A program made the translations under genes and the position numbers. A DNA stretch of 34,983 bases, from assembly GCA_027366675.1 (NCBI GenBank), contig DAHXND010000118.1, positions 1 to 34,983 on the forward strand. Direction: 5' to 3'. The notes under the pieces are model-generated. The model did no database searches, was not told the DNA's origin, and worked only from the letters and a program-made list of their open reading frames with translations. Positions 10,594 through 34,705 of this stretch are shown here, one piece after another. The stretch is from Acidimicrobiales bacterium. GTDB lineage: Bacteria > Actinomycetota > Acidimicrobiia > Acidimicrobiales > JAMCQF01. The number at the start of each line of letters is the position of its first letter. The stretch's first letter is position 1.

Positions 10594-11817
10594 GTGCGAG
10601 CGCTGGAGCCGGTTTACATTGTGGATGCCTGCCGGACGCCAGTCGGGCGCTACAGGGGAGACATCTCAGCAGTGCGCCCAGACGATCTGGCTGCCACGGT
10701 ACTGAGGGCACTCATTGCGAGGAATCCAGGCGTCCCGCCAGACCAGATAGAGGACGTCGTCATGGGAGCGGCCAACCAGGCCGGCGAGGACAACCGCAAT
10801 GTCGCGCGAATGGCTGTGCTGCTCTCCGGGCTCCCGGTCTCTGTGCCCGGTGTCACCGTGAACAGGCTGTGTGGCTCGAGCCTCCAGGCCGTGAACCAGG
10901 CTGCCACTTCACTCGTGGTGGGAGATGGGGAGATAGCCATAGCAGGCGGCGTCGAGTCTATGAGCAGAGCCCCATGGGTGCTACCCAGGCCGGGTGAGGC
11001 GCTTCCCCGCAAGCAGGAGATCTTCGACACGAAGCTCGGCTGGCGCCTTGTCAATCCAAAGATGCCAGATGAGTACACGATCTCGCTCGGCGAGACGGCT
11101 GAGGTCCTGGCGTCAGAGATGGCAATCAGCCGTGAGGATCAGGACAGGTTCTCCTACGAGAGCCACATGAAAGCCATCGCAGCGTGGGGAGATGGGTGCT
11201 TCGAGCGGGAGGTCGTCCCAGTGGAGGTTACGGTTCCCCGGCACGGCAATCTGGAGGGGTCAACGGTGCTCGTTGCCAGGGACTCCGGTCCGCGAGCAGA
11301 TACCACCTTGGAAGCGCTTGCCACCCTTCCGCCGGTTTTCAAGCGGGGCGGGACTGTTACAGCCGGTAATTCGAGTCCTCTGAACGATGGTGCCGCTGCT
11401 GTGATCCTGGCAACGGAGCATGCTGTGGAGCGCCTTGGTCTGGAACCAATGGTTCGCATTGTCGCAAGTGCTGTAGCTGGTGTGGAACCCCAGAGGATGG
11501 GGATAGGGCCCGTCCCGGCCATGGAAAAGGCGCTTAGTAGGGCTGGATGGAAACTCGATGAGCTGGTTGCCGTAGAGCTGAACGAGGCATTCGCGGCCCA
11601 GAGCCTGGCCGTGATGCGCCTGCTCCACCTGGATCCGGAGAAGGTGAATCCGCTTGGTGGCGCGATAGCGCTCGGGCATCCGCTTGGCTGCTCCGGAGCG
11701 CGTATCCTGACGACTCTCGTGCACGAGCTCAGTGGTCTTGCCTCAGGCAGTCGCGGAGCTGCCACTATGTGCATAGGAGTGGGGCAGGGAATAGCGACTC
11801 TCGTCGAGCGAGTGTAG
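10594..11817 (+). CDS. Acetyl-CoA C-acyltransferase/thiolase, PcaF/PaaJ (3-oxoadipyl-CoA thiolase)-like
   Basis: NRLCGSSLQA active-site Cys; NEAFAAQ; GGAIALGHPLGCSGAR; FDTKLGWRLVNPKM and TMCIGVGQGIA resemble PcaF/PaaJ motifs. Confidence 0.9.
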   Translation: MRALEPVYIVDACRTPVGRYRGDISAVRPDDLAATVLRALIARNPGVPPDQIEDVVMGAANQAGEDNRNVARMAVLLSGLPVSVPGVTVNRLCGSSLQAVNQAATSLVVGDGEIAIAGGVESMSRAPWVLPRPGEALPRKQEIFDTKLGWRLVNPKMPDEYTISLGETAEVLASEMAISREDQDRFSYESHMKAIAAWGDGCFEREVVPVEVTVPRHGNLEGSTVLVARDSGPRADTTLEALATLPPVFKRGGTVTAGNSSPLNDGAAAVILATEHAVERLGLEPMVRIVASAVAGVEPQRMGIGPVPAMEKALSRAGWKLDELVAVELNEAFAAQSLAVMRLLHLDPEKVNPLGGAIALGHPLGCSGARILTTLVHELSGLASGSRGAATMCIGVGQGIATLVERV

Positions 11818-11818
11818 T

Positions 11819-13084
11819 TTGAGGCGCTCCTGGAGCGTCGTCGCTCTGAGGGGGCGCAGGAAGAAGGGCGCGGATCGAGACTTCGAGCCCGAGAGTAGCG
11901 AGAAGCAAGGTGGGCTTCGCTGCAATCTGCTGGCGGCAGTGCTCTCCACCCTGACCGGGATGCTGCCCGTCTATCTCGTGGGGACGCTCGAGGTGGAGAT
12001 CACGCGCTCGCTGCGCTTCGGCCCGAGTGCTCTTGGCGAGGCCGTGAGCCTTTCGTTCGCAGCATCCGCGCTGAGCGCCGTTCCCTTCAGCCGTGTCACC
12101 GAGCGTGTGGGAGGGGTGCGGGTGATGCAGGTAGGGTCCGCCCTGCAAGCCCTGATCCTCGTTCTCATGGCAGCGACTGCCAGGTCCTGGGACATGCTGG
12201 TGGTTTTCCTGGTTCTGGCTGGCCTGCCCAGTGGGGCACTTCCTCCCGCGACCTATGCCTTCTTGTCACGCAGGACTCGCACCGGCAGGGAGGGGCTTGC
12301 CTACGGGATCAACCAGGCAGCTGTGCCTCTGGCGCCACTGCTGGCGGGTTTCGCAGTTCCTCTTATCGCTCTCACGATAGGATGGCGCTTCGCCATCGGT
12401 CTCGGCGCAGTGTTTGCAGCCGGAGCGAGCATTGCAGCGACGCGCTCGGGAGCGCGGATCAGGCTGGCGGGGAAAGCCAGGGAGCCCAGGGATCGCTCAG
12501 CGCTGTCCCTCCTGCCTCTCGGACTGCTGGCCGCGGGCTTCTTTTGCGGGATGTTCGCCACGAATGCCGTCCTTGCATTCCTCGCAGCAGGGGCCGTGGC
12601 CGTGGGTTTCGGGAAGGGCATGGCTGGCCTGGTAGTGGCACTCGGCAGCGCGACGGCAGTCGCTGTGCGTGTTTTCACAGGGCACCGGGCGGATCGAAGA
12701 GGGGAGAGGCATTTCCCCGCCGTCGCGGCGATGCTGTGTGTCGGGGGCGCTGGTTACGCTCTTCTCGCCATGAGCGCTGTGCTCCGTCTCACGTGGCTGC
12801 TCGTCCCTGCCGCCATGCTCGGGTTGGGCGCGGGATGGGGGTGGAACGGCCTGCTTATCTTCGCGGTGGTTCGGGCTCATCTGCACGCACCGGCGCGGGC
12901 CACCGGCATCGTAGATGTAGGGGGTCGCATGGGTGGCGTGCTGGGGCCGCTTGCCGCGGGGCTGCTGATTGCCGAGGTTTCCTACACCTCCGTATGGGTC
13001 ATGGCGGCCATCGCTTCGTTCACTGGCGCAGGCGTCATACTGCTCGGGGGGAAGATGCTGGGTGCGCGCATACGTGATCCCTAG
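11819..13084 (+). CDS. MFS-family transporter
   Basis: About 12 hydrophobic segments, MFS-like two-half layout; TTG start immediately after the thiolase stop. Confidence 0.75.
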   Translation: MRRSWSVVALRGRRKKGADRDFEPESSEKQGGLRCNLLAAVLSTLTGMLPVYLVGTLEVEITRSLRFGPSALGEAVSLSFAASALSAVPFSRVTERVGGVRVMQVGSALQALILVLMAATARSWDMLVVFLVLAGLPSGALPPATYAFLSRRTRTGREGLAYGINQAAVPLAPLLAGFAVPLIALTIGWRFAIGLGAVFAAGASIAATRSGARIRLAGKAREPRDRSALSLLPLGLLAAGFFCGMFATNAVLAFLAAGAVAVGFGKGMAGLVVALGSATAVAVRVFTGHRADRRGERHFPAVAAMLCVGGAGYALLAMSAVLRLTWLLVPAAMLGLGAGWGWNGLLIFAVVRAHLHAPARATGIVDVGGRMGGVLGPLAAGLLIAEVSYTSVWVMAAIASFTGAGVILLGGKMLGARIRDP

Positions 13085-13133: not shown

Positions 13134-13153
13134 CTGGTCCGCTAGCGGACCAG
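13134..13153. promoter_or_regulatory. Perfect 20-bp palindrome between convergent MFS and cupin genes
   Basis: CTGGTCCGCTAGCGGACCAG equals its reverse complement; overlaps cupin stop; degenerate copy at about 13112-13131. Confidence 0.85.
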
Positions 13154-13570
13154 ATTCTGGCCTGGCGGAGTGTAGCCCCATAGGAAGACCAGGTCACTGT
13201 CTGCCCTGGAGCGGTGCATGTGCCAGGAGCCGGGCGGTATGAGGTTGAGCGATCCCGGGCCGACCTCGGCGCGGCCCATGCGCTCGGCCCAGAATTCGCC
13301 GCGCCCTTCTAGCACGAAGACGAACTCCTCATGCCCTTCGTGGCGATGCCACGGAGCAGCCTGGCGGGCTGGTATGCGAGCTAGACCTATGAGAACCTGC
13401 TCATTGCCGGAGATCTCTGGGCTTGCGAGGATCGCTATGTGGCGCCTTGTCCAGCGGAGCCGCTCGCCGCGCCATTCCCATGAGTGAGGGGGATCTCTGA
13501 GGAATGGGGCGAACGGCTCCGCTCGGCCTGGCATCTGTGTGGCCCCGGCAGCACTGGACTCCAGCGTCAT
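13142..13570 (-). CDS. Small cupin-domain protein
   Basis: PWHRHEGHEEFVFVLEGRGEFWAE...GPGSLNLIPPGSWH cupin motifs. Confidence 0.85.
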   Translation of the reverse strand: MTLESSAAGATQMPGRAEPFAPFLRDPPHSWEWRGERLRWTRRHIAILASPEISGNEQVLIGLARIPARQAAPWHRHEGHEEFVFVLEGRGEFWAERMGRAEVGPGSLNLIPPGSWHMHRSRADSDLVFLWGYTPPGQNLVR

Positions 13571-13643: not shown

Positions 13644-15425
13644 GTGACAGGTGCAGAGAGGGCAGCCGGCGAGGTTACGAGCGGGGCGGAGGTAATGAGC
13701 GGGGCGGAGGTTACCGCCAGGATTCTCGAGAGCGAGGGCGTCAGCCACGTCTTCGGCCTGTGCGGGCATACGAACGTGGCTGTTCTGGCAGCTCTGGAGC
13801 GCTCTCCCATACGCTTCGTGGGCGTCCATCACGAGCAGATAGCGAGTCACGCAGCAGACGGCTTCGCTCGCGTGAAGGGTGAGCCGGGTGTGGTCCTCAC
13901 CCATCTGGGTCCTGGCCTTACCAATGCACTAACCGGCGTAGCCAATGCAAGCCTCGATGCGATACCGATGGTCGTGATTACCGGAAATGTCCAGAGCTAC
14001 TTCTTCGGACGCCATGCTCATATGGAGACGCTTTTGAAGGCCGATGCCGATCAGGCTCGGGCTTACGATCCCTGGTGCAAGCGAATATGGCATATTGAAC
14101 GTCCCGAGGCGCTTCCTGGCGCTCTACGCTCCGCATTCTTCATGGCACGCTCTGGGCGTCCGGGTCCGGTGCTCGTGGATGTGGCCATGGATGTTTTCAG
14201 CCGGCCAGTTCACATGCCTCTCCCCTCCTCCCCGCTCCCGCTCCCGGATGGACCGGGCCTGCCAAGCGCTACGGCCGACGCGATAGCAGAGCGCCTGCTC
14301 TCGGCTCGTCGCCCAGTACTGTACGCGGGCTCGGATGTGGTGCGTAGCGAGGCGGGAGCAGCGCTTCAGAAGCTGGCAGAGCTGCTCGGTGCCCCGGTGG
14401 CTTATTCCCTCATGGGGAAGGGAGCTATCAGTGATCGCCATCCGCTCTGCGTGGGGATGACTGGGTTCTGGGGTACTCCGGCTGCCAATGCTGCTTGCGT
14501 GGACGCAGATGTGATCCTGGCAATCGGTACCAGCTTCACCGAGCTCGACACCAGCTCATGGACGCCCGGCATGAGCTTCCGGATACCCCCGACCGACCTC
14601 ATCCATACGAATGTCGAAGCAGCCGAGATCGGCCGCTCTTACGAGCCGCTGATCGGTGCTGTAGCCGATGCCGCGTCAGTTTGTGAAGAGGTGCTAGAGC
14701 GCGTGGATGCGGAGCTCGCAGGCAAAGGGCTTTCCCGTTCCACGACCCTGCCCGCTCACCTGCTGCGGGCGAAGGAGGAGTTCGAGGCAGGCTTGCAGGA
14801 GGCTCGCTTCTCGGCTGCATTGCCTATGCGCCCCGAGCGTGTTCTGCACGAGATCTCGGAGCTCATCGATGACGGTGTCGTGCTCGTAGGGGATACTGGA
14901 TGGAACAAGAACGGCATCGGTCAGCAGGTTCCAGTGGAGAACCACGCGCAGATCATACTCCCGGGCGGTTATTCCACCATGGGGTTCGGCCCTTCGGCGG
15001 CGCTTGGCGTCGCGATCGCTTCGGAAGGAAGGAAGGTGCTGGCTCTAGTGGGAGATGGAGCGTTCCTAACGAATCTCTCTGTGATGGTGACAGCGGTGGA
15101 GGAGCATATTCCGGTCGTGTGGGCAGTGATGAACAACGGCACATATGCGACCATCAGTTCGATGGAGGGCAAGCATTTCGGAACCGAGTACGGTGCAAGT
15201 TTCGATACGAGTCGCCTGAGCTATGCCGAAGCTGCCACCGCCGTGGGCGCACGGGGATATCGCGTGGATGCTGCAGAGAAGCTCCTCCCGACTCTCCGGG
15301 ACGCTCTCCAGTGTGGGGAGCCAGCTGTGGTAGACATCCCATGTACCAGGGACAATGTACCTACTACGGGGAGATGGGAGATAAATGACCTCTTCGATCG
15401 TTACCTTGCGGATGGGGGGTCCTGA
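13644..15425 (+). CDS. Thiamine-diphosphate-dependent enzyme of the acetolactate synthase/decarboxylase superfamily (C-C lyase or ligase)
   Basis: VSHVFGLCGHTN...HHEQIASHAADGFAR, GPGLTNALTGVANA, ThDP motif GDGAF...NNGTYATI. GTG at 13644 has a well-spaced GAGGAG; the track start at 13539 overlaps the cupin gene. Confidence 0.88.
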   Translation: MTGAERAAGEVTSGAEVMSGAEVTARILESEGVSHVFGLCGHTNVAVLAALERSPIRFVGVHHEQIASHAADGFARVKGEPGVVLTHLGPGLTNALTGVANASLDAIPMVVITGNVQSYFFGRHAHMETLLKADADQARAYDPWCKRIWHIERPEALPGALRSAFFMARSGRPGPVLVDVAMDVFSRPVHMPLPSSPLPLPDGPGLPSATADAIAERLLSARRPVLYAGSDVVRSEAGAALQKLAELLGAPVAYSLMGKGAISDRHPLCVGMTGFWGTPAANAACVDADVILAIGTSFTELDTSSWTPGMSFRIPPTDLIHTNVEAAEIGRSYEPLIGAVADAASVCEEVLERVDAELAGKGLSRSTTLPAHLLRAKEEFEAGLQEARFSAALPMRPERVLHEISELIDDGVVLVGDTGWNKNGIGQQVPVENHAQIILPGGYSTMGFGPSAALGVAIASEGRKVLALVGDGAFLTNLSVMVTAVEEHIPVVWAVMNNGTYATISSMEGKHFGTEYGASFDTSRLSYAEAATAVGARGYRVDAAEKLLPTLRDALQCGEPAVVDIPCTRDNVPTTGRWEINDLFDRYLADGGS

Positions 15426-16864
15426 TGGACCAGTACGGCATCTTCGTAGATGGCGTCTCGCGTCCAGGTCGAGGCGAGATCTATCCTCTCGTGGAGCCAT
15501 GGAGTGGGGAGCCATTTGCGGAGGTAGCGCAAGGGGACGAGAGCGACCTGGACGCGGCCATTGCCGCGGCGAGCAATGCAGCCAGCAGGTCCGGTTGGGA
15601 GCGGCTAGAGCCCATAAGGCGTGCCTCCGTTCTGAGTGCTTGCTCCGATCAACTGCGCGCACGTGTTGACGACCTTGGTGCTCTCGAGGCGCGGAACGTA
15701 GGCAGGCCGGTTGCAGAGACGAAGCGCAATGTAGAGCTGGCAGCGGACGCGTTTGCCTATTTCGCGTCACTGACTACACATATAAGAGGATCGACCATTC
15801 CCATGGGCCCAGGCCTCTTCGACTATACCCTTCGCGAACCATACGGGGTGTGTGGCCTCATAACTCCCTGGAACAATCCGATAGTGCTCAGCTCATGGAA
15901 GATAGCAGCCGGGCTTGCAGCGGGTAACGCGCTGGTGGTGAAACCTGCTTCAGCCACACCGCTGAGTGTTCTGGTGATCGGCGAGATACTTCACGAGTGT
16001 GGGTTACCGGCTGGCCAGTTGAACATAGTGCCGGGGCCCGGCTCGACGCTCGGCAACCGGCTGGTGGAGAGCAGTGAAGTCGCGAAGGTCAGCTTCACCG
16101 GTTCCACGCAGACAGGGATCGGCATAATCCAGCGTGCTGCGGGTCACATGGCAAAGGTGTCTCTGGAGCTGGGTGGCAAGTCTCCTTCGCTCGTGTTCTC
16201 TGACGCAGATTTGGAGCTGGCTCTGTCAGGTTCTGTGCCGGCCATGTTCTCGAACGCCGGCCAGATGTGCACTGCCCGGAGCAGGGTGCTCGTTCAGGAC
16301 AGTGTTTTCGACGCGTTCATGGATGGCTTCGTGAAGCATGTGAGCGCCATAAAGCTAGGTAGCCCTTTCGATCCCGATGTCGGAATGGGCCCGGTGATCT
16401 CCCGTGCCCAGCAGGAGCAGGTCCTCGGTTTCCTCGATCGAGCGACCGCTGCAGGAGCATCCGTCCGTCACGGTGGAGGTATTCCTGCACATCCGGATCT
16501 GGCCAAGGGATTCTTCGTGGAGCCGACGATCCTGACGGATGTCGAGCCAGACAGCGAGGTATCAACAGAAGAGGTATTCGGTCCCGTGGTGGTAGTGGAC
16601 AGGTTCTCGACCGAGGAGCAGGCAGTAGAGCGGGCGAACGCCTCCCCCTATGGGCTCACGGCCACGGTGTGGACGAGGGACCTTGGCAGGGCGCACCGTG
16701 TGGCTGCTGCTCTCCGGGTCGGAACTGTGACCGTGAATACCACGAAGGTCAGCTATGTGTATGCACCTTTTGGTGGGTACAAGGCGAGTGGCCTCGGGCG
16801 GGAGCTCGGCCTGGAGGGCCTGGATGAGTTCCTGCAGGTGAAGAACGTCGTCATAGGTCTCTAG
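15425..16864 (+). CDS. NAD(P)+-dependent aldehyde dehydrogenase
   Basis: ITPWNNP, FTGSTQTG, LELGGKSP, NAGQMCTA catalytic Cys; ATG overlaps upstream TGA (TGATG). Confidence 0.95.
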   Translation: MDQYGIFVDGVSRPGRGEIYPLVEPWSGEPFAEVAQGDESDLDAAIAAASNAASRSGWERLEPIRRASVLSACSDQLRARVDDLGALEARNVGRPVAETKRNVELAADAFAYFASLTTHIRGSTIPMGPGLFDYTLREPYGVCGLITPWNNPIVLSSWKIAAGLAAGNALVVKPASATPLSVLVIGEILHECGLPAGQLNIVPGPGSTLGNRLVESSEVAKVSFTGSTQTGIGIIQRAAGHMAKVSLELGGKSPSLVFSDADLELALSGSVPAMFSNAGQMCTARSRVLVQDSVFDAFMDGFVKHVSAIKLGSPFDPDVGMGPVISRAQQEQVLGFLDRATAAGASVRHGGGIPAHPDLAKGFFVEPTILTDVEPDSEVSTEEVFGPVVVVDRFSTEEQAVERANASPYGLTATVWTRDLGRAHRVAAALRVGTVTVNTTKVSYVYAPFGGYKASGLGRELGLEGLDEFLQVKNVVIGL

Positions 16865-16917: not shown

Positions 16918-16941
16918 GGTGATATAGTCATTATGAAGTAC

Positions 16942-17019: not shown

Positions 17020-19197
17020 GTGACGGAAGTCGACGGCCGGCTGGCATCGCTGAGCGAGTCGGCAGAGCAGTTGATACTGAGCGGCAAGGCGGTTCTCGGC
17101 GAGGCAGAGGTCCGCGAGTGGCTAGGTGGGCTGCTTGCGTTCGGGCGCTCAGTTGTGTGCGACACGCCCGGTGAGGCGTCTGCGGCAGCTGAGGAGCTTG
17201 GATTTCCGGTCGTGCTGAAGGTCTTTGCCCAGGCAGCGCTGCACAAGTCCGACCAGGGCCTGGTTATGCTCGGGCTTGGTACGGCTCCCCAGGTTGCCGC
17301 TGCTGCAACGGAACTCTTGGCGAGAGCCCGCTCGCTCGGCTTTGAAGATGCCAGGCTTGGCGTCCAATGCCAGATCTCGGGGGTCGAAGCCGCGGTGGGG
17401 ATCCGGCGCGACGCCCTGGGTGCTGTATGCATGGTAGCGGCAGGCGGCACCCTGATAGAGCTGTATGGGGATATCTCTCTCGGGATTGCACCGCTCACCA
17501 GGTCAGAGGCGAATGCGATGGTAGAGCGCCTGAAGCTGGCGAAGCTTCTTCACGGTTACCGCGGGAGTGAAGCCCTGGATGTAGACGCGCTCGTCGATCT
17601 TCTCATGAGGGTGTGCAGCCTGGCCCTGGCTGTGCCTGAGATCAGCGAGCTCGACCTGAATCCCGTCTTCGTGCGCAGGCTCGGATGCGTGGTGGCGGAC
17701 GCTCGGGTGGTTCTGGCGAACAGGGTCACAGCCGAGGACGATCGTGACTTTGCCGACCTTGGCGCGTTGCTGGACCCGCAGCGCGTAGCTCTGATCGGGG
17801 CAGGATCGGATTCGAGGAAAGTCGGTGGCCTTCTCCTCAAGTACCTGCGCAAGTATAATTTCGCGGGGGAGCTACTGGTGGTCAATCCGGCTGCTCCTGA
17901 GTTGGATGGGGTATCGGTTGTGCCCGATCTCCGCTCCTACGCAGGGAAGGTCGACCTTGCATGTATAGCAGTGCCTGCCAAGGCCGTGGGTGGCGCAGTA
18001 GACGACTGCATGAGGGCGGAGGTGCCTGTCGGGATCATCTATTCATCCGGTTTCGGGGAAGCCGGAGAGGACGGGCGTTTGGCTCAGGAGCGTCTGGTCG
18101 AGCAGACGAAAGGGCGGTTCCGTTTCCTTGGCCCGAACTCCATGGGTGTGGCGGTTCCAGACGATAACTACTTCGCTACTTTCGGTATGGCTCTTGAGGC
18201 GCGAGATATCCCCTCTGGACCTATCGGTTTCGTTTCTCAGAGCGGGGCTATTGCCAGCTCGCTTTTCAGCCGGAGTGGAGAGTTCGAGACCGGCTTCAGC
18301 CACTGGATAAGTGTTGGCAACGAGGCGGATATCGGGGTGGCAGATGCTACTGCGCACCTCGCTGGTGATGAACGTTGCAAGGTGATATGCCTTTTTATCG
18401 AGGTTATCCGGGATCCCGGTTCGTTCGCCAGAGCCGTTCAGTTAGCCCATAATGCCGGCAAGGCTGTTGTGGTGTTCAAGACCGGCCTTTCGGATGCAGG
18501 CAGAGCGGCAGCGGCATCCCACACAGGAGCGCTGACCGGGTCCGACGAAGTGTATTCGGCGTTCTTCTGGCGCCACGGCATTGTAAGAGTGAGTAGCCTC
18601 GAAGGGCTGTTCGTTGCCGCACACGGCGTTCTCACGGCTGGCCCAGTCAGGGGACGTCGGATTGGGATCGTATCGATGTCTGGGGGTTTATGCTCTGTTC
18701 TTGCGGATCTCTGTGCCCGTAACGAGCTCGAGGTTCCCGCGTTGGCTTCCTCGACGCAGCACCGGCTGTCCGAGCTGATCCCATCATTCGGTGCCCTGCG
18801 CAACCCCGTGGACATAACCGCCGTCGGGATACAGCATCCCCATATGGTGAGAGATGCCGTTACAGCCCTTCGGGACTCCGACGAGGTCGACGTTGTGCTG
18901 GTGCAGCTGAGCACGAACGCAGACCCAGCCGCAGCTGAGATGGCTCTCGACCTGTGCCAGCTTCGCGAGACCAGCGGACCCCCGATACTGGTTGGTCGCC
19001 TCGGATCGAGTGCTCTCGCCCCGAAGGCCATGACGGTCTACAGGGAAGCCGGGGTTCATGTGTTCACCTGGCCCGATCAGCTTGTCCAGGCAGCTACAGC
19101 TGCGGTGACATTTGGTAGGAGCATGGCCAGTGACATCGAAGAGATGGAGGGAGCCGTGACGGGACGCCCCGATCGTCTGAGCCAGGTAGGAGATTGA
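17020..19197 (+). CDS. NDP-forming acyl-CoA synthetase (acetate-CoA ligase [ADP-forming] family), ATP-grasp domain first
   Basis: N-terminal GFPVVLKVFAQAALHKSDQGLVMLGL (ATP-grasp_5-like), then VALIGAGSDSRKVGG CoA-binding and SQSGAIASSLF, AAASHTGALTGSD with conserved His. Confidence 0.9.
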   Translation: MTEVDGRLASLSESAEQLILSGKAVLGEAEVREWLGGLLAFGRSVVCDTPGEASAAAEELGFPVVLKVFAQAALHKSDQGLVMLGLGTAPQVAAAATELLARARSLGFEDARLGVQCQISGVEAAVGIRRDALGAVCMVAAGGTLIELYGDISLGIAPLTRSEANAMVERLKLAKLLHGYRGSEALDVDALVDLLMRVCSLALAVPEISELDLNPVFVRRLGCVVADARVVLANRVTAEDDRDFADLGALLDPQRVALIGAGSDSRKVGGLLLKYLRKYNFAGELLVVNPAAPELDGVSVVPDLRSYAGKVDLACIAVPAKAVGGAVDDCMRAEVPVGIIYSSGFGEAGEDGRLAQERLVEQTKGRFRFLGPNSMGVAVPDDNYFATFGMALEARDIPSGPIGFVSQSGAIASSLFSRSGEFETGFSHWISVGNEADIGVADATAHLAGDERCKVICLFIEVIRDPGSFARAVQLAHNAGKAVVVFKTGLSDAGRAAAASHTGALTGSDEVYSAFFWRHGIVRVSSLEGLFVAAHGVLTAGPVRGRRIGIVSMSGGLCSVLADLCARNELEVPALASSTQHRLSELIPSFGALRNPVDITAVGIQHPHMVRDAVTALRDSDEVDVVLVQLSTNADPAAAEMALDLCQLRETSGPPILVGRLGSSALAPKAMTVYREAGVHVFTWPDQLVQAATAAVTFGRSMASDIEEMEGAVTGRPDRLSQVGD

Positions 19198-20378: not shown

Positions 20379-20882
20379 GTGACTGAGGCCGCTTCCACAG
20401 AATCCCGCAATGGTGCTGCTGACTCGGTGTTGTTCAATCGAGTTGCCACTGTTGCCCGGACTATAACAGAGGGGGATGTATACCTATTTGCTGGTGTAAC
20501 TGGCGATATGTCCCCCGTGCATCTGAATGCTCAGTATGCGAAAAGGCTTCCAGGTGGGCAGCGAGTAGCGCATGGGGTGTTGCTGGTCGGCCTCATGTCT
20601 GCCGCATCCTCCGTATGGTGCCGCGATGTCGGGCTTGATGCGTTCTCCTATGGCTACGATCGAGTTCGGTTCGTGCGACCAGTGCGATTCGGCGATACCA
20701 TCCGAGTCAGCTACAGGCTCGTCGAGCACGAGCCTGGCGAGCGGCGTTATGTAGCTGAGGCAGAGGCATTGAACCAGGAAGGTGAAGTAGTGGCAGTCGC
20801 CAGGCATATTCTGTGGGAGGTCCTACCTGAGGACGGTGACTCTTCCCGGGATGGGGAAGTTAGATCTGGGAGCGAAGAGTAG
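20379..20882 (+). CDS. MaoC-like (R)-specific enoyl-CoA hydratase
   Basis: FAGVTGDMSPVHLNAQYAKR...RVAHGVLLVGLMSA hydratase-2 motif; GTG 20379 chosen to avoid overlap with the upstream gene. Confidence 0.85.
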   Translation: MTEAASTESRNGAADSVLFNRVATVARTITEGDVYLFAGVTGDMSPVHLNAQYAKRLPGGQRVAHGVLLVGLMSAASSVWCRDVGLDAFSYGYDRVRFVRPVRFGDTIRVSYRLVEHEPGERRYVAEAEALNQEGEVVAVARHILWEVLPEDGDSSRDGEVRSGSEE

Positions 20883-24405: not shown

Positions 24406-24443
24406 GGCTAACCAGCTCGCGTATGGCTAACCAGCTCGCGTAT
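24406..24443. repeat. Exact 19-bp tandem duplication at the 3' end of the minus-strand OYE-like gene
   Basis: GGCTAACCAGCTCGCGTAT at 24406-24424 and 24425-24443. Confidence 0.97.
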
Positions 24444-26448: not shown

Positions 26449-27225
26449 TCAATCAGGGCACCAACCTCCGTCCACGTCTATCGTCTCTCCCGTTATGTAG
26501 AGGGCGGCATCCGAGAGTAGGAAGCCCACTATCCCTGCCACTTCCTCTGCTGTCGCGGCTCGCCCCAGGGGGACTTGGGACAGGACCTCTTTGTCCAGAT
26601 CACCGGCTGTTTGTGCCGCCATGCCCGCATGCACATGGCCTGGCGCTACCCCGTTGCATCGTATTCCACGGGGAGCGAGCTCCCGGGCTACGGATGCAGT
26701 AAGGTTCCTCAGAGCTGCCTTGGACGCGGAGTAGTGCGCTCCGGATGGGGAAAAGGGTCCATAGGACACACCGACCGGGCCAGACGATCCCAGCTTGGCC
26801 ATTATCGACACGATATTGACTATGGAGCTGGCGTTATCTTCGAGGACCGGAGCTGCGCGCTGCATGGCGAGAAACGGTGCTGTGACGTTTACAGCGAAGA
26901 CCAATTCCCATTCTTCTTTCGTGATCTCCACCAGGCCGGGCCTGCGGCCATCCCGTTTCGGCGAGATTCCGACGGAGTTGACCAGCGCGTGGAGTTGGTC
27001 TCCTCCCCGCGCTATCTCTATAGCTTGGTCCACTACCGCCAGGTCGGTGAGATCTCCGTCGACATATCGGGTGGCCCCCGCGGCCAGAGATGCCTGCTCT
27101 CCACTGGAGCCCGCTATGTCTGCCACGGTTACCTCATAGCCCTGCCTGCAGAGCTGCTGGACGATTGCCCGACCGATGCCCCCGGCCCCTCCGGTCACGA
27201 GTGCGCGCCGTGATGAGCCGGTCAT
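26449..27225 (-). CDS. SDR-family oxidoreductase
   Basis: ALVTGGAGGIGRAI, NSVGIS, YSASKAAL, GETIDVDGGW. Confidence 0.93.
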   Translation of the reverse strand: MTGSSRRALVTGGAGGIGRAIVQQLCRQGYEVTVADIAGSSGEQASLAAGATRYVDGDLTDLAVVDQAIEIARGGDQLHALVNSVGISPKRDGRRPGLVEITKEEWELVFAVNVTAPFLAMQRAAPVLEDNASSIVNIVSIMAKLGSSGPVGVSYGPFSPSGAHYSASKAALRNLTASVARELAPRGIRCNGVAPGHVHAGMAAQTAGDLDKEVLSQVPLGRAATAEEVAGIVGFLLSDAALYITGETIDVDGGWCPD

Positions 27226-27381
27226 ATTCGGTCCGCTTTTCCTGGGTCAACAGCTCCCCTGGAGGTGCACTCGGGGCCAGCTCTGGCGCGAGCTGGGGGG
27301 TGAGCCGTTGGGTTCCCGCCTGTTCTCCAACTAATACGCTTGAGCGCTCTACAGGTCATCCGTAGCAGTATACTACTTGCC

Positions 27382-28209
27382 ATGCATCTCACTGCGTCCC
27401 CACCATCGCCCGTGTCAGGAATGCCCGGGTCCGGTTCGTCTCCTTCGGGGCATGGCAGGCTCGAGGGGCTTACTGCGGCGATAACGGGATCTACTCGCGG
27501 AATTGGCTTCGCGATAGCTGAGGCATTCGTTGCCGAGGCTGCGCGGGTCGTGGTGAACGGACGGGACGAAGACGCGGTTTGCAGGGCGGTATCTGCTCTC
27601 GGGGACGGGGTGGTGGGCGTACCCGCGGACGTTACTGTGCCGGAAGGAGCGAGGAGCGTGGTAAAGGCAGCGCTCGATAGCTTCGGCACGCTTGACGTCT
27701 TTGTAAACAACGCCGGGGGCCCTCAGGTGGACGCTACCCTGGATCTCTCGCTGGAACGCTTTAGGGCGGTCATGGATCAGAATCTTACGTCGACCCTTCT
27801 TTGCTCCCAGGAAGCAGTCAAAGCTATGCTCGCCCAGGCAACCGGTGGCTCGATTGTGAACATGTCCTCCATGGTTGGAATCGTGGCAGCTCCGCGTCGT
27901 GCTGCCTACGCGGCGGCCAAGGCAGGCGTCATTGCCCTGACACGGGTATTCGCCGCGGAGTACGGTCCTCTCGTCCGTTGCAATGCGGTTGCTCCTGGCT
28001 ACGTCGATACGGATCTCACGAAGGAGCTGAAGCGCCGGGGGGCGATTGACTCTGACCGGATAGTGTCGCGTACCCCCTCGGAACGCTTTGGCACGCCAGC
28101 TGAGGTTGCGCAGGCCGTGCTGTTCCTGGCCTCTCCTGCTGCCGCCTACGCCAGCGGGAGCGTACTCCTCCTCGATGGTGGGTTTACATCGGCAGCAGCC
28201 TGGTCATAG
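27382..28209 (+). CDS. SDR-family oxidoreductase
   Basis: AAITGSTRGIGFAI, NNAGG, YAAAKAGV, GSVLLLDGG; ATG 27382 preferred over the track start at 27340. Confidence 0.92.
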   Translation: MHLTASPPSPVSGMPGSGSSPSGHGRLEGLTAAITGSTRGIGFAIAEAFVAEAARVVVNGRDEDAVCRAVSALGDGVVGVPADVTVPEGARSVVKAALDSFGTLDVFVNNAGGPQVDATLDLSLERFRAVMDQNLTSTLLCSQEAVKAMLAQATGGSIVNMSSMVGIVAAPRRAAYAAAKAGVIALTRVFAAEYGPLVRCNAVAPGYVDTDLTKELKRRGAIDSDRIVSRTPSERFGTPAEVAQAVLFLASPAAAYASGSVLLLDGGFTSAAAWS

Positions 28210-28426: not shown

Positions 28427-28497
28427 CAATATTGACCTGTAACCAGGGGGAGGCCGTTGGGGCCTTACGTGATGCAAGACCACGAAGGGAGAGAGAA

Positions 28498-29853
28498 ATG
28501 CGCCATCGCAGATCAGGAAGTGGCGGGGAGGTCTCGCGCTTACGCGAGAGCTGTAAGGCGGGGGAGGTATATTCTGCAGACCAAGCGCTCACCAGCCCCG
28601 GGGTGAGCAGTCAGGGTCTGAGGCGCTACTGGTCAGCGGTCGTGGCCGTAATGGTCGGCGCCCTCGTGCTAGCTGCCTGCAGTTCTACGACAACCACGAC
28701 GAAGCCTTCGAAGGCGGTTAGCAAGAAGGGTCCTGTGATCCTCGGGCTGGCTACACCACTTACCGGTGGCGATCCTACCGAGGGGACCTCCGAGGTAGCA
28801 GACTTCAAAGATGCAGTCGCTTACGTGAACAGTCATGGCGGCATAGACGGCAGGACGCTGAAGCTGGTGGTTCGCGATACTGATCTATCGCCTACCGGTG
28901 CCGTGACAGCGTTCGACTCTCTGGTCAGTGCTGGGGCGGTCGCTGTCACGGGAGAGTTCACCTCGTCTGACACGAGAGCGGGCTGCATCCCGGCAATGGC
29001 CGACCATGTTGTACTGCTTGCCGGCTCCAGTGCGGCACAGGGTCTTACCAGAGGGAAAACATATTGCTTCCGCGACGAGTACCAGGTCAACCAGTCAACC
29101 GGATCGATGGTGCTGATTGCCAAGAGAGAAGGCTGGACCAAGATAGGCATTGGCTCAGATACGAGCGGCTTTGGACTCTCTGAGCTGAACGCGTGGTCTG
29201 CGGCTCTTCCGGCTAACGGCATCACTGTCGCGGCGAAGGAGACCTGGCCGATGGTTCCCACCTCTCTGACGGCTCAGGTTCTCGACTTCAAGCACAGCGG
29301 AGCCCAGGCGATTTTCGTCGGTGCTGCAGGGACACCTGAAGTCGTGCTTCTGGCGAAGACAATGCTCCAGGAGGGGTTGCATATCCCGCTGTTTGGCCCC
29401 GGAGGAGTCATAGGTACCGGGATCGCGGCAACAGCAGGGCCGTCCTACAGCAGGCTGCCACTCGTCCTCGGGATAACAAGCTATGACAGTCAGGTGCCAG
29501 CGGAAGCTGCTCTCATGGCTGAGATCTCCAGGCAGACGGGTATCCCGCAATTCGGTGGGAACATGCCTCGTGACTATAACGGGGTACTTATGTTGGCAGC
29601 TGCCCTCCGAAAGACCGGCGGGAAGGGTGGAATCGCTTTGGTTGACGCGCTGCAGGCATTGGGAAAGTACCCCATGCCTACGGCAGCAGGCCCAGGTACC
29701 TATGAGCAGTTCACCGCTACCCATCATTCCGGGCTGTACGGACCCAATCTGATCTCCATATACAAGTGGAATTCGGGCACCTCATCCTTCGCATACAGTT
29801 CCAAGTTCAGCACGCTGGCCAATACTGCGCCGCATTGCTGTACGCTCCCATAG
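28498..29853 (+). CDS. ABC transporter substrate-binding lipoprotein, Liv/Peripla_BP family
   Basis: Lipobox LVLAACSS; VILGLATPLTGGDPTEG...VNSHGGIDGRTLKLVVRDTDLSP; GAAGGGAGAGAG upstream of ATG 28498. Confidence 0.9.
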   Translation: MRHRRSGSGGEVSRLRESCKAGEVYSADQALTSPGVSSQGLRRYWSAVVAVMVGALVLAACSSTTTTTKPSKAVSKKGPVILGLATPLTGGDPTEGTSEVADFKDAVAYVNSHGGIDGRTLKLVVRDTDLSPTGAVTAFDSLVSAGAVAVTGEFTSSDTRAGCIPAMADHVVLLAGSSAAQGLTRGKTYCFRDEYQVNQSTGSMVLIAKREGWTKIGIGSDTSGFGLSELNAWSAALPANGITVAAKETWPMVPTSLTAQVLDFKHSGAQAIFVGAAGTPEVVLLAKTMLQEGLHIPLFGPGGVIGTGIAATAGPSYSRLPLVLGITSYDSQVPAEAALMAEISRQTGIPQFGGNMPRDYNGVLMLAAALRKTGGKGGIALVDALQALGKYPMPTAAGPGTYEQFTATHHSGLYGPNLISIYKWNSGTSSFAYSSKFSTLANTAPHCCTLP

Positions 29854-29896
29854 GTGGGTTGCATAGCGAGGATCTGATCATAGGGATGGAAATGGT

Positions 29897-29936: not shown

Positions 29937-30037
29937 GCGTCAGAGATCAAAAGCAACGTGTGTGCTCGTGTTAGGGGGCTTGCATGGATATCCAGGGGCC
30001 CGCTCGGGATGTGTTTCGGTGAGAAAGAGATTTGCCG

Positions 30038-30919
30038 ATGAGTGAGTTCTTGGGCGTCCTGATTGCCAGCCTGTTTCTTGGCGGGGCGCTAGGGCTTATG
30101 GCTCTCTCATTCACCGTCGTGTTCTCGGTGGGGCGTGTATTCAATTTCGCGGTTGGCCAGTTCGTGATTTTCGCGGGCCTGCTGGTCAGTGCCGTGACAC
30201 TAACGCCGAACAGGTGGGCGAATGCCCTACTGGCCGTTGTAATACTGGTTGGGGCGGGAGCCGTTGTGTATTTGCTGGCGATATGGTGGCCGGAGTCACG
30301 TGGAGCGGCGCCGCTGACCCTTGTCATCATTACCTTTGGCTTGGGCGAGATCGTGGCAACTACGACGAACTCTGGCTGGGGTGGGTTCGTGCGATCTGCT
30401 CCCACACTTGTCGGAGGCAGCTTCAGGGTGGACGGGAATCTGGTCCCCTACCAGGGGATTTTGTTCCTTGGCATAACTGTTGCAGTCGTGATGCTCCTCT
30501 GGCTGGTCCAGCGCTTTACCATCACCGGGAAGCAGGTGATCGCGATAGGAACGACACGCGAGGCAGCTAAGTACTACGGAATCAACAATCTGAAGGTAGT
30601 GCTCCTGACCTGGATGCTAGGGTTCGGGCTACTCGGCGTGGTGGGAGCATTCTATCTCCCGTTGTCGACTGTTTCGATGAGTGATGATCTCACTTTCGGC
30701 GTGCAAGCCTTTGCCGCTGCTGTTGTAGGCGGGCTGGGGAACTCAGTTGGTGCGCTTCTTGGAGGATTCCTGATTGCCTTCCTGATCAATGCTGTTGGCG
30801 TCTATATAAGCTCTTCTGTAGTGAGTTTCGCCGCCTACGCGGTGCTCTTACTCTTCCTGATCGCCAGGCCTGCGGGATTGACTGGTCGCATGAGCGAGCT
30901 ACTGGGTCCGCGGGCATGA
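30038..30919 (+). CDS. Branched-chain amino acid-type ABC transporter permease (LivH-like)
   Basis: Hydrophobic LivH-like protein; SDDLTFGVQAFAAAVVGGLGNSVGALLGGFLIA. Confidence 0.92.
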   Translation: MSEFLGVLIASLFLGGALGLMALSFTVVFSVGRVFNFAVGQFVIFAGLLVSAVTLTPNRWANALLAVVILVGAGAVVYLLAIWWPESRGAAPLTLVIITFGLGEIVATTTNSGWGGFVRSAPTLVGGSFRVDGNLVPYQGILFLGITVAVVMLLWLVQRFTITGKQVIAIGTTREAAKYYGINNLKVVLLTWMLGFGLLGVVGAFYLPLSTVSMSDDLTFGVQAFAAAVVGGLGNSVGALLGGFLIAFLINAVGVYISSSVVSFAAYAVLLLFLIARPAGLTGRMSELLGPRA

Positions 30920-32985
30920 CAGAGCCAGCCGGAGGCTTGCCCGTTCCGCGTGGCGCATATAGCAGACTGCGGGCAATGGCGCTCGAGCGGCTTCGTACGC
31001 AGCGCATGAGCTGGTCCGGCGATGTCTTGGTAATACTGATCATGGCAAGCGTAGCTTTCGTTACGCAGTCACGGGGAAGCTCCTTTGCCATCGATGTGGC
31101 TACCGAGTTCGGTCTGCTGACTATCCTGGTCGGGAGCCTCCAACTCATGCTTGGCTATACGAACCAGGCCTCGCTGGCTCAGGCGGCATTATATGGGCTC
31201 GGCGCTTATACTTCGGCTTACCTAGAGATCACATACCATGTCCCAGTTGTAATCGCCCTCCTCAGTGCGATTGGGGCTGGTCTGGTCTGCGGTCTTTTGG
31301 TTGCTATCCCGCTGGTTCGCCTTCACGAGCATTTCCTTGCTCTGGGGACTCTCGCTTTGCAGATGATAGGGTCGACGCTCGCTACTCACTTGATCTCGAT
31401 CACCGGTGGTCCAAGTGGTGACCCTGTACCCATAGCTCACGTGAACTCAATTGGACTTGTATATGTGGTACTTGCTCTAGGCGCGGTGGTCGTCCTCGGA
31501 CTGAGGCGTATGAAATTTACTCGAATGGGTCGCAGGCTGCTCGCTGTGAAGACTGATGAGACGATGGCAGCGAGCAATGGGGTGAATGTGGCACTAGCTC
31601 GGGTCTCGGTTATCGTCGTAGGATTTGCACTGGCCTCTGGAGCTGGTTTCCTATTCGGTATGTCCGCAGGGTTCATCGCTCCAAGCGATTTCTCCCTGAC
31701 ATTCTCGTTGGTGATACTCGTGGCTATGATAGTTGGCGGGAGATCGCTGACCTGGGGGACTCTGGTGGGTGCCGGTGCTTATAGCATTCTTCAAGTCGAG
31801 TCAACCGGATTCCCGGGTCTATACGAGCTGATCCTGGGTATCTTCCTGGTGGTTGTGCTGGCTTATTTCCCGTGGGGTCTTACTGGTATCAGCTGGGATT
31901 TGATCCGGCGGTTTGCTTCTAGATCCGGATCTACTGGTCTGGATCTGGCATTCGAGGAAGCCCGGGACCCGTTCTCAAGCGATGTGCAGTCCTTCGACTT
32001 GCAGTCAGTGGAGGGAGAGCAGCTTCACGGTGCCGGGGTCAACTCTCCGGAGGATGGCTACGCGCAGGAATACAAATTCAGCTATCGCGATGAAATTGCT
32101 TCCTCTGCGTCAGGCGGTGGCGATTCGGGAGCCAGTGATGGGTCTCGGTCGGGTGGTGGTCGGAGTCCTGACGTTTCAGCGCCGAGGGCAGAGGGACCGG
32201 TGCTGGAGGTGGACGGAATCGTAAAGCGTTTCGGTGGAGTAGAGGTACTGGCAAATGTGACGCTCTCGATAGCTAACCCAGGGGATATATGCGCCATTCT
32301 TGGTCAGAACGGCGCGGGGAAGACAACCCTGCTGAATATAATCACCGGCATCGTTCGTCCAGACGCAGGCACGGTTAAGGTTGGCGGAGACGCGATCACC
32401 GGCAAGAGACCCTGGAAGATAACGGATTTTGGCATTGCGAGATCATTTCAGAATCCCAGGCTCCTCTTGGAGGAATCGTGTCTGGAAAACGTCCTGGTTG
32501 GCGATGCAGGTCGTAGGGGGGTTATCGACTCCTTGGCTACGCTGAGGCATCATGGGACTTCGGCTAGGGCGTCTGCTCGTGAGGCACTACGGCTTACGGG
32601 ACTAGCGAACGCTGAATCCGAGCTCGCCGGAAGCCTGCCGTATGGGGCACGAAAGGTCCTGGAAATTGCTCGCTGCTTGGCAATAGAGCCCCGCCTGCTG
32701 TTGCTGGACGAGCCTGGGGCAGGACTGAGCGAGGAAGAGGAGCTATGGCTGGCAGGAGTACTGGCGAGCCTGGCGGCACGAGGTATCACCATTCTCCTGA
32801 TCGAACATCGAATGCGGCTTGTCTCCATGGTCGCCAGACGAGTCGTGATGCTCGATTCCGGAGTGATCGTGTTCGATGGTCCTACGGATGCTGCTCTAGC
32901 CAGCCCCATCGTCAAAGAGCGCTACCTTGGCAAGGAGCTGGCGAATGTCGGTAGTTCCAGCGGAGATGGAGTCCTGGAGGGATGA
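30916..32985 (+). CDS. Fused LivM-like permease and LivG-like ATPase
   Basis: LivM-like N-half (YTNQASLAQAALYGLGAYTSA), Ser/Gly-rich linker, then ATPase with GQNGAGKTT Walker A, LPYGARKVLEIAR signature, LLLLDEPGAGL Walker B; ATGA overlap. Confidence 0.93.
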   Translation: MTEPAGGLPVPRGAYSRLRAMALERLRTQRMSWSGDVLVILIMASVAFVTQSRGSSFAIDVATEFGLLTILVGSLQLMLGYTNQASLAQAALYGLGAYTSAYLEITYHVPVVIALLSAIGAGLVCGLLVAIPLVRLHEHFLALGTLALQMIGSTLATHLISITGGPSGDPVPIAHVNSIGLVYVVLALGAVVVLGLRRMKFTRMGRRLLAVKTDETMAASNGVNVALARVSVIVVGFALASGAGFLFGMSAGFIAPSDFSLTFSLVILVAMIVGGRSLTWGTLVGAGAYSILQVESTGFPGLYELILGIFLVVVLAYFPWGLTGISWDLIRRFASRSGSTGLDLAFEEARDPFSSDVQSFDLQSVEGEQLHGAGVNSPEDGYAQEYKFSYRDEIASSASGGGDSGASDGSRSGGGRSPDVSAPRAEGPVLEVDGIVKRFGGVEVLANVTLSIANPGDICAILGQNGAGKTTLLNIITGIVRPDAGTVKVGGDAITGKRPWKITDFGIARSFQNPRLLLEESCLENVLVGDAGRRGVIDSLATLRHHGTSARASAREALRLTGLANAESELAGSLPYGARKVLEIARCLAIEPRLLLLDEPGAGLSEEEELWLAGVLASLAARGITILLIEHRMRLVSMVARRVVMLDSGVIVFDGPTDAALASPIVKERYLGKELANVGSSSGDGVLEG

Positions 32986-33731
32986 CTCAGGTGCTGGCAG
33001 CCGGGGTCACTACCGGCCGCGAGGAGTCGGTCGCACTCGAGGCGATCGCGGTGGCATACCGATACGGGGCGGTGCCTGCCCTAAGGGGTGTGTCATTGTC
33101 CATCAATGCGGGGGAGTCAGTGGCTGTAGTGGGTCTGAACGGAGCGGGAAAGAGCACGCTTATGAAGGTGATAGCAGGGGCGCTACGTGGCTATTCGGGG
33201 AACTGCAAGCTATTCGGGCTGCCGATTGACAGTCTGAGATTGCGGGCTCGTATGCGCGCTGGTCTGGTCCTCGTGCCAGAGGGGCGTTTGATAGTCCCGT
33301 CTCTGTCAGTCGAGGACAATCTGCTTCTCGGCTCATCACATCGTGGGGCGAAGCGGCCTCTGGCTGATGACCTGGCGCTGGTATATGGCATATTTCCGGA
33401 GTTATCAGGAATGTGCCATAGTCAGGTTGGATCGCTGAGTGGTGGCCAGCAGCAGATGGTGGCTACCGGTCGGGCGCTCGTGGCCCATCCGAAGGTGCTC
33501 TTGCTGGACGAGCCTTCATTGGGTCTGGCTCCCGTGCTACTCGATCGCCTTGGGCTGGCTTTCAGGGAGCTGAGATCCTCTGGGCTCACTATGGTGATAG
33601 TAGAGCAGAATCTTTCCTTCGCGCGTTCGGTAACCGATCGCCTCTACGCTATTAGCGAAGGGGTGCTCAGATTCGATGGTTCCTGGGGCGAGTTCGCTGC
33701 CAAGGGAAATCTGTTGCAGCAGTATTTATGA
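32982..33731 (+). CDS. ABC transporter ATP-binding protein (LivF-like)
   Basis: GLNGAGKST, LSGGQQQMVATGRAL, LLLDEPSLGLAP; ATGA overlap. Confidence 0.94.
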   Translation: MTQVLAAGVTTGREESVALEAIAVAYRYGAVPALRGVSLSINAGESVAVVGLNGAGKSTLMKVIAGALRGYSGNCKLFGLPIDSLRLRARMRAGLVLVPEGRLIVPSLSVEDNLLLGSSHRGAKRPLADDLALVYGIFPELSGMCHSQVGSLSGGQQQMVATGRALVAHPKVLLLDEPSLGLAPVLLDRLGLAFRELRSSGLTMVIVEQNLSFARSVTDRLYAISEGVLRFDGSWGEFAAKGNLLQQYL

Positions 33732-34705
33732 GAGCGGTGATGCTTCTTGCTCCAAGGCAGATGGAGGTCGTTGCTGGCGTTCCTGATCCTTCTCCCGCGT
33801 CCGGGGAAGTGCTGGTGACGCTCATGGCGCTAGGGATATGCGGATCAGACCTAGCGGTGTGGGGTGGGGCGGTTGTCCCACCTACGTATCCCTGGATCCT
33901 GGGTCACGAGGCCGTGGGCCGGATCGCGTCTGTGGGGGAGGGGGTCCCGGGATCGCGCGTCGGAGAGATCGTTGTCATAGAGCCGAACTATCCTTGCGGG
34001 ATGTGCCATTCCTGCCTTGCTGCTCGGACCTCCAGTTGCTCAGGTCGGCAGGTGGTGAGCCGCACCATTCCCGGTCTTTTGCGTGAGAGATTCTGCGTAC
34101 CATCGGAGTTTGCATGGAGGGTGGCTGATGTGCATTCCATCGAAGATCTTGTTTGCATCGAGCCGCTAGCCGTAGCAGACCACGCAGCAGGTCAGGTGAG
34201 ACCTATCCATACAGGAGGGTGCCTTGTGGTGGGTGCGGGGGCATTGGGCCTTATGGTCGTCCAGCTCATGGCCGCCTATGGGCTGGAAGTAAGTGTGGCC
34301 GAGCCGAACGGGGAGCGAAGGGCTTTCGCGTTAGAGTGTGCGAGCAGGAAAGCTCGCTTGACAGAGGGCACTAGCTTTGGGCTCGTCTTCGAGACATCTG
34401 GCACAGTTGATGGCCTGAGAGAGGCAGTGAACTATGCCCAGACGGACGCTACCGTGGTTGCACTCGGACTTCCTCACGGGGATATTCCAATGCCGGTGGA
34501 GACCGTGGTCCGCAAGCAGATCACACTTGTGGGATCTGCCATCTATGACCATCCAGACGGGTTCTCGAAAGCGCTCGGCCTGGTTGACAAGGGGATACTT
34601 AGTCCGGGGCGTATTCTGGGACGGCGCTACGAGTTGTCCATGACGCCTGAGGCCTTTGCTTCAGCTGGGACACTTGCTGGAAAGACGTGGATCGTTGCGG
34701 ACTGA
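33728..34705 (+). CDS. Zinc-dependent alcohol/polyol dehydrogenase (MDR family)
   Basis: GICGSDL, GHEAVGRI, structural Cys cluster CGMCHSCLAARTSSC, GAGALGLM; ATGA overlap with LivF-like gene. Confidence 0.9.
   Translation: MRAVMLLAPRQMEVVAGVPDPSPASGEVLVTLMALGICGSDLAVWGGAVVPPTYPWILGHEAVGRIASVGEGVPGSRVGEIVVIEPNYPCGMCHSCLAARTSSCSGRQVVSRTIPGLLRERFCVPSEFAWRVADVHSIEDLVCIEPLAVADHAAGQVRPIHTGGCLVVGAGALGLMVVQLMAAYGLEVSVAEPNGERRAFALECASRKARLTEGTSFGLVFETSGTVDGLREAVNYAQTDATVVALGLPHGDIPMPVETVVRKQITLVGSAIYDHPDGFSKALGLVDKGILSPGRILGRRYELSMTPEAFASAGTLAGKTWIVAD

Follow-up and report, generated by a model that had tools for sequence, protein, structure and literature searches.

The window, by which we mean the whole stretch of 34,983 nucleotides that was analysed, holds a 24-kb actinobacterial gene cluster (Table 1) from a host genome that is 85% complete. 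Open reading frames and domain matches confirmed the genes, positions and families listed in a preliminary description of this DNA, and added to that list an MFS transporter gene and a reverse-strand cupin gene between the thiolase and ThDP genes. The 4-bp junction overlaps reported in that description were also borne out, the sequence showing an overlap of exactly 4 bp at five junctions: CaiB/SDR1 (22106-22109), MaoC2/ECH (23489-23492), LivH/LivMG (30916-30919), LivMG/LivF (32982-32985) and LivF/ADH (33728-33731). The ThDP and aldehyde dehydrogenase (ALDH) genes overlap by 1 bp, and the ThDP gene probably starts near 13695 rather than at 13539, where its open frame begins. Because the flavoenzyme gene and one SDR gene (24408-27225) lie on the minus strand, the cluster is not a single operon, and because the contig end at 34983 falls inside a further SDR gene that starts near 34876, the cluster is truncated. 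Sigma-70-like promoters are located ahead of the thiolase gene (10496-10524) and in the 155-bp gap between the ALDH and ligase genes (16899-16928). The GC content of the catabolic part is 60.5%, lower than the 65.2% of the flanking housekeeping genes and the 63-66% of five other loci in the same genome.

Table 1 Features of the cluster, with positions in the window and the evidence for each assignment
Feature	Position	Strand	Evidence
Thiolase, closest to 3-oxoadipyl-CoA thiolase PcaF	10594..11817	+	NCBIfam PRK09050/pcaF; Pfam thiolase N and C
MFS transporter	11819..13084	+	PF07690
Small cupin protein, divergent from ThDP gene	13142..13570	-	PF07883, 58.6 bits
ThDP-dependent enzyme, putative hydrolase of a cyclic 1,2-dione or alpha-ketol	13695..15425	+	Three TPP domains
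Aldehyde dehydrogenase, non-acylating, BADH-like	15425..16864	+	PF00171, 540.7 bits; NCBIfam
NDP-forming acyl-CoA ligase	17020..19197	+	ATP-grasp, CoA-binding and Succ_CoA_lig domains
Acyl-CoA dehydrogenase (ACAD)	19202..20338	+	Alignments; NCBIfam
MaoC-type hydratase 1, GTG start proposed	20379..20882	+	PF01575
CaiB-family protein, alpha-methylacyl-CoA racemase type	20886..22109	+	PDB matches; aligned His/Asp/Glu
SDR dehydrogenase 1	22106..22843	+	NCBIfam FabG-like; ATGA overlap
MaoC-type hydratase 2	22899..23492	+	PF01575
Enoyl-CoA hydratase/isomerase (crotonase)	23489..24346	+	PF00378
FadH/OYE-type flavoenzyme, enone or dienoyl-CoA reductase-like	24408..26375	-	PF00724 and Pyr_redox_2; PDB 6qkg NCR, 1ps9 FadH
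SDR dehydrogenase 2	26449..27225	-	PF13561
SDR dehydrogenase 3	27340..28209	+	NCBIfam PRK07231, above its cut-off
Solute-binding lipoprotein, Liv-type importer	28432..29853	+	PF13458; lipobox LAAC in translation
LivH permease	30032..30919	+	PF02653
Fused LivM-LivG, permease and ATPase	30916..32985	+	PF02653 and PF00005
LivF ATPase	32982..33731	+	Translation; BLAST to LivF proteins
Zn-dependent alcohol dehydrogenase	33728..34705	+	PF08240/PF00107; co-occurrence with ThDP gene
Further SDR gene, start only, rest cut by contig end	34876..34983	+	Translation

The ThDP enzyme resembles acetolactate synthase (ALS) and glyoxylate carboligase more than cyclohexane-1,2-dione hydrolase (CDH), both in its sequence as a whole and in its fold. 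Orthology to ALS (TIGR00118, 339.2 bits vs a cut-off of 538.35), to IolD (TIGR04377, 212.2 bits vs a cut-off of 715) and to CDH was rejected on score, motif and tree. In the tree, it forms the first and deepest branch of a monophyletic 12-member clade (support 100/100), on a long end branch (1.09) and with 42-49% identity to the other members. Alignment with CDH (2pgn) showed that CDH His28 is conserved, and a Gly-His pair occurs at this position in the window protein, its clade, CDH, six of six IolD proteins and relatives from inositol contexts, in contrast to the Gly-Gly of 14 ALS-like proteins. CDH His31, His76 and Asn484 are not conserved, being replaced by Val, Leu and Ile, respectively; since a His of the window protein lies one column before His76, equivalence to His76 is not claimed. 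His28 is the residue exchanged in structure 4d5g and also in the carboligating CDH variant H28A/N484A (PMC12247030). A fold search with the ThDP model, which is of modest confidence (pLDDT 72), returned the generic ThDP fold and did not discriminate among enzyme types. The clade, whose members come from Bacillota, Betaproteobacteria and Actinomycetota, is a new and uncharacterised enzyme clade; the single annotated record examined is named only 'thiamine pyrophosphate-binding protein'.

Among the putative beta-oxidation enzymes, the thiolase has PcaF-type models as its two best matches, both below their cut-offs (526 vs 605, and 518.5 vs 597 for TIGR02430). The CaiB-family protein had been called AMACR-like, and this assignment holds: its best PDB matches are the MCR/FAR racemases (2g04, 1x74), and its motifs AGHDxNYLS, IADMAGGG and YETSDG align with 2g04, their His, Asp and Glu being the catalytic residues of alpha-methylacyl-CoA racemase. 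In the ACAD, alignments showed Gly in place of the usual YEGT Glu, and, as an alternative catalytic residue, a Glu at the position typical of isovaleryl/long-chain enzymes (NIERL). The Liv-type importer set is complete, with a solute-binding protein, two permease domains and two ATPases.

The expectation that these genes are conserved together was upheld for two blocks, ThDP/Zn-ADH and ACAD/NDP-ligase, and was not supported for the whole set as a unit. Of 389 genomes of the class, three contain the ThDP gene (E<=1e-100); these same three also contain the Zn-ADH (E<=1e-50), which is absent from the remaining 386 (P=1e-7 with all genomes taken as independent); as two of the genomes (G470 and G537) belong to the same family, the three co-occurrences amount to about two independent cases. 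The NDP-ligase had no match at E<=1e-100 in these 389 genomes. The ACAD and NDP-ligase genes adjoin in 8 of 10 plasmid loci examined, one of which also carries a PcaF thiolase and a DcaP porin; the portion considered of an RB-TnSeq study on dicarboxylates contains no test of this pair (PMC12543098). Importers of like layout with a fused LivM-G are present in three actinobacterial ThDP clusters (Streptomyces, Nonomuraea and the genome G199). Specific co-inheritance of the importer with the ThDP gene was rejected, because importers from unrelated loci match that of the window equally well (594 and 535 bits, vs 582, 492 and 469 for the ThDP-linked ones), and it was therefore dropped as evidence.

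Clade members include proteins of Azoarcus KH32C, Streptomyces NBC_01450, Nonomuraea, Dethiosulfatibacter, E. yurii and Propionivibrio. Their gene neighbours encode shikimate dehydrogenase, AroD, TIM barrels, ALDH, CaiB proteins of the SUGCT/formyl-CoA-transferase type and a citryl-CoA or HMG-CoA lyase. Judged from gene content, these sister neighbourhoods look like a hydroaromatic ring-opening module, seemingly one that acts on quinate, shikimate or similar ring acids from plants. This hydroaromatic setting of the ThDP relatives was beyond what the earlier reading of a single sequence could see. The window and the sister clusters share the ThDP clade and ALDH, and some sisters also have a Zn-ADH. 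Most sister clusters carry shikimate dehydrogenase, a TIM barrel and a citryl-CoA or HMG-CoA lyase, whereas the window has an adipate-type beta-oxidation set with an AMACR-type racemase instead and, within its length, no such lyase beside the ThDP gene.

We put at roughly 55% the probability that the cluster is a catabolic island for a six-membered-ring alicyclic compound, hydroaromatic or cyclitol-like, degraded via ThDP-dependent ring opening; the reactions, their order and the substrate class are what we infer from these sequence comparisons. In the proposed pathway, the Liv-type ABC system would import the substrate, and the Zn-ADH and SDRs would oxidise ring hydroxyls to yield a cyclic 1,2-dione or alpha-hydroxyketone, while a conjugated C=C would be removed by the OYE-type flavoenzyme. 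The ThDP enzyme would then hydrolyse the C-C bond between the adjacent carbonyl carbons to generate an omega-oxo acid, which ALDH may convert to a dicarboxylic acid that is activated with CoA by the NDP-forming ligase. The AMACR-type protein would epimerise an alpha-branched acyl-CoA, followed by the ACAD, hydration by MaoC/crotonase enzymes, SDR oxidation and thiolysis by the PcaF-like thiolase. The chain from uptake through oxidation, ThDP, ALDH and CoA ligation to beta-oxidation had already been outlined in the preliminary description; it fits the families found here, while conservation of the set as a whole is not supported. Several findings speak against the ring-opening reading: the nearness of the ThDP enzyme to ALS and glyoxylate carboligase, the three CDH residues that it lacks, the lack of ligase matches in the class at the threshold used and of an importer specific to ThDP clusters, and the absence from this genome, itself incomplete and with the cluster cut short, of the IolI-like TIM barrel, additional shikimate dehydrogenase and citryl-CoA lyase of the sister clusters.

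It is doubtful that two unrelated clusters merely adjoin here, one for ring opening (ThDP-ALDH, perhaps with ADH) and one for beta-oxidation of a branched acid or dicarboxylate (ligase-ACAD-MaoC-CaiB-SDR-ECH). Other genomes conserve the ThDP/ADH pair without the ACAD/ligase pair and vice versa, and the promoter-bearing gap between ALDH and ligase would suit such a division; against it, the conserved ThDP and ADH genes flank the beta-oxidation block on both sides, and an omega-oxo acid from ring opening requires such a block, as in the cyclohexane-1,2-dione route. Very improbable is the idea that the ThDP enzyme acts as a carboligase like acetolactate synthase, or decarboxylates 2-oxo acids, amid generic fatty-acid or branched-chain metabolism. 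Although BbmA, acetolactate synthases and glyoxylate carboligase are the solved structures closest to it, its score is far under the ALS cut-offs, the same genome encodes a separate ALS-type protein (G000:C11), and its clade has Gly-His rather than Gly-Gly and recurs in hydroaromatic-type clusters.

Alternatively, the window could encode the quinate/shikimate pathway suggested for the sister clusters, from the ring through homocitrate semialdehyde and homocitryl-CoA to acetyl-CoA and 2-oxoglutarate, with the missing lyase and dehydratase genes lying past position 34983 or in the 15% that the genome assembly lacks. The shared ThDP clade and ADH, the similar placement of ALDH and the fused LivM-G importer in Streptomyces, Nonomuraea and G199, and the contig end within a cluster gene are consistent with this, but we consider it unlikely. 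The 85% of the genome at hand holds one citrate-synthase-family gene and, outside the window, no lyase of that family; it has no IolI-like TIM barrel, only an endonuclease IV-like one, and no shikimate dehydrogenase beyond a single AroE. Moreover, the full beta-oxidation set would be superfluous in such a pathway, and the CaiB protein of the window is of the racemase type and that of Azoarcus of the SUGCT type, so that identification of the window protein as a CoA-transferase shared with the sister clusters was rejected.

More tentatively, the clade may represent a route, so far undescribed and independent of oxygen, by which hydroaromatic acids from plants are degraded, and of which the window would be an offshoot. 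In the sister route, 3-dehydroquinate would be dehydrated to a cyclic 1,2-dione and hydrolysed to homocitrate semialdehyde, leading to homocitryl-CoA, which a citryl-CoA-lyase- or HMG-CoA-lyase-like enzyme may split into acetyl-CoA and 2-oxoglutarate. In the offshoot, the substrate would lack the tertiary hydroxyl, and the lyase would therefore be replaced by the beta-oxidation set and racemase. No paper on a ThDP-type hydroaromatic route was found in the open-access literature searched, and one may exist elsewhere. The recurring partner genes of the clade predict a specific chemistry, which could explain the oxygen-free breakdown of quinate and shikimate by fermenting bacteria.

Known cases of ring hydrolysis with thiamine are those of inositol and cyclohexane-1,2-dione. 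Like the IolD/IolE system of inositol ring opening, the window enzyme has the Gly-His motif and is proposed here to hydrolyse a cyclohexane-1,2-dione after dehydrogenation; unlike that system, the window has no IolE-like dehydratase, IolB or IolC. The plasmid-borne dicarboxylate (adipate) cluster of Acinetobacter LoGeW2-3 shares with it an ACAD (43% identical), a nearby ligase of the same family and a PcaF-type thiolase; clusters of this kind, whose substrates are presumed, have a fused hydratase/3-hydroxyacyl-CoA dehydrogenase in place of the MaoC, crotonase and SDR proteins. The closest described logic, which the preliminary description had not named, is the CDH route. That pathway comprises alcohol dehydrogenases, a ThDP enzyme, an aldehyde dehydrogenase and adipate-type CoA activation with beta-oxidation. 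The pathway proposed for the window shares this order, with alcohol dehydrogenases upstream, and its ThDP enzyme also shares His28, the direct comparison here being that of the enzyme; in contrast, its ThDP enzyme belongs to another clade and lacks the other three CDH residues, and the cluster adds an AMACR-type protein, an OYE-type flavoenzyme, a Liv importer and an NDP-forming ligase. The logic of the cluster is known, and its wiring is new.

The window spans contig C227 from end to end; the draft genome to which it belongs comprises 2.48 Mb in 234 contigs and is 85% complete. Its housekeeping block, extending to position 10472, carries infB, an RbfA-TruB fusion, ribF, pnp, an M16 peptidase gene and dapB (most named by reading the translations), and is followed by a catabolic stretch of ~24 kb running to the contig end. 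The families, coordinates and 4-bp overlaps given for the catabolic genes in the preliminary description all agreed with our ORF, domain and sequence checks, to which we add an MFS transporter, the location of the flavoenzyme and one SDR on the reverse strand, and a small cupin gene divergent from the ThDP gene, possibly a sensor or isomerase of the cluster. The GC content of the catabolic part is 60.5%, versus 65.2% in the housekeeping block and 63-66% in five loci elsewhere in the genome, and this compositional difference may reflect acquisition. The RbfA-TruB fusion is a single 549-aa open frame in which both domains exceed Pfam cut-offs, with a GSPPGRLP-type repeat close to the C terminus. 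In the flavoenzyme frame, the first ATG/GTG/TTG codon is a TTG at 26375, which drops about ten N-terminal residues still encoded upstream (LAQPLTIGPITLKNRIVSAPM); translation probably begins at a rare start codon.

Features located in the window and in related loci
Location	Coordinates	Strand	Feature
Window	2418-4067		RbfA-TruB fusion
Window	13142-13570	-	Small cupin gene
Window	24408-26448	-	Flavoenzyme open frame
Window	33728-34705	+	Zn-ADH
L050 (Azoarcus KH32C plasmid pAZKH)	9934-17448		QuiC1-like halves, CoA-transferase, citryl-CoA lyase, ThDP enzyme, shikimate dehydrogenase, AroD
L027 (Propionivibrio dicarboxylicus)	8146-9983		Split transketolase pair immediately upstream of ThDP gene
L063 (Agrobacterium larrymoorei plasmid)	1-2183		ALDH, citryl-CoA lyase, CaiB, consecutive

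The window ThDP protein contains three TPP domains and scored far under the curated cut-offs for both acetolactate synthase (ALS) and IolD. Orthologues sharing ~40-49% identity with it occur in Dethiosulfatibacter, Eubacterium yurii, Propionivibrio, two Bacillota/Clostridia MAGs and five actinobacterial genomes, and, in the plasmid collection, in Azoarcus KH32C, Streptomyces and Nonomuraea. In a maximum-likelihood tree, the window protein branches first in this clade (support 100/100), on a long end branch. Alignment to cyclohexane-1,2-dione hydrolase (CDH; a sequence identical to 2pgn over 589 residues) placed His at CDH position 28 in all clade members covering the site. His is also found there in six IolD proteins and in the Halalkalicoccus and Shinella relatives of inositol or similar context, and Gly in 14 ALS-like proteins. 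The other CDH residues, His31, His76 and Asn484, show no conservation. The motif therefore supports, short of proof, a cyclic-dione type chemistry.

The proposal that the window genes form one functional unit held in part, two independent tests linking the ThDP enzyme with Zn-ADH and the ACAD with the NDP-forming ligase. At E<=1e-50, the Zn-ADH at the far end of the window is matched in just 3 of 389 other class genomes, exactly the three with the ThDP gene: immediately before it in G597, ~4 kb away in G537, and in G470 on another contig, syntenic to the G537 cluster. Plasmid records gave no match at 1e-30. Taking genomes as independent draws, P=1e-7, the real weight being lower since G470 and G537 share one family. 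On annotated plasmids, genes closely related to the window ACAD adjoin an NDP-forming ligase, or lie no more than about three genes from one, in 8/10 loci inspected, one of which also carries a PcaF thiolase and a DcaP-type porin; given these pairings, the block likely acts on a dicarboxyl-CoA. The Liv importer failed its control comparison as a co-inherited part of the ThDP cluster, and the ligase has no close match across class genomes; thus, the set as a whole appears to be particular to this lineage.

In the ACAD, the usual YEGT glutamate is missing, but a Glu is present in NIERL, at the position typical of isovaleryl- and long-chain acyl-CoA dehydrogenases, and the enzyme is therefore plausibly an active dehydrogenase. 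At this position 5af7, a desulfinase of the same superfamily, has Gln. The CaiB-family protein, described earlier as AMACR-like, indeed retains the His, Asp and Glu of alpha-methylacyl-CoA racemases, suggesting an alpha-branched acyl-CoA substrate.

The sister hydroaromatic clusters around the ThDP relatives are a more striking by-product than the window pathway itself. Among 11 clusters with usable flanks, 9 carry a citryl-CoA or HMG-CoA lyase, 8 a shikimate dehydrogenase family member and 8 a TIM barrel. ALDHs are acylating in five and BADH-type in four; a CaiB-type CoA-transferase accompanies every BADH-type ALDH, and for acylating ALDHs is present in G537 and G470 (on a second contig in the latter) and absent within the stretch seen in G376, L025 and L026. 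Curated cut-offs are exceeded by the citryl-CoA lyase of Azoarcus, the HMGL of Dethiosulfatibacter, and the shikimate dehydrogenases of Dethiosulfatibacter and Streptomyces. In Azoarcus KH32C, the ThDP gene is flanked by citryl-CoA lyase and shikimate dehydrogenase, and two further proteins are annotated as 4-hydroxyphenylpyruvate dioxygenase and sugar-phosphate isomerase, the latter matching the N-terminal part of 5hmq, the dehydroshikimate dehydratase QuiC1. This gene set is a candidate hydroaromatic pathway through homocitryl-CoA. The neighbour-gene pattern fits a route, its steps deduced from chemistry, in which the ring would be opened to a semialdehyde and converted to homocitryl-CoA, which the lyase would split. 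If so, these clusters would account for the breakdown of quinate and shikimate without oxygen. In P. dicarboxylicus, a TIM barrel, a shikimate-dehydrogenase homologue and TRAP transporters lie downstream of the ThDP gene. In A. larrymoorei, an ACAD/NDP-ligase cluster and an aconitase lie near the ALDH-lyase-CaiB row, in a stretch seen without a ThDP gene.

Searches of the open-access literature returned no matching paper. The catabolic stretch most likely encodes a pathway that opens an alicyclic ring hydrolytically and then degrades the resulting dicarboxylate by beta-oxidation. Its logic would parallel that of the cyclohexane-1,2-dione route, the ThDP enzyme, ligase, racemase and importer being different.
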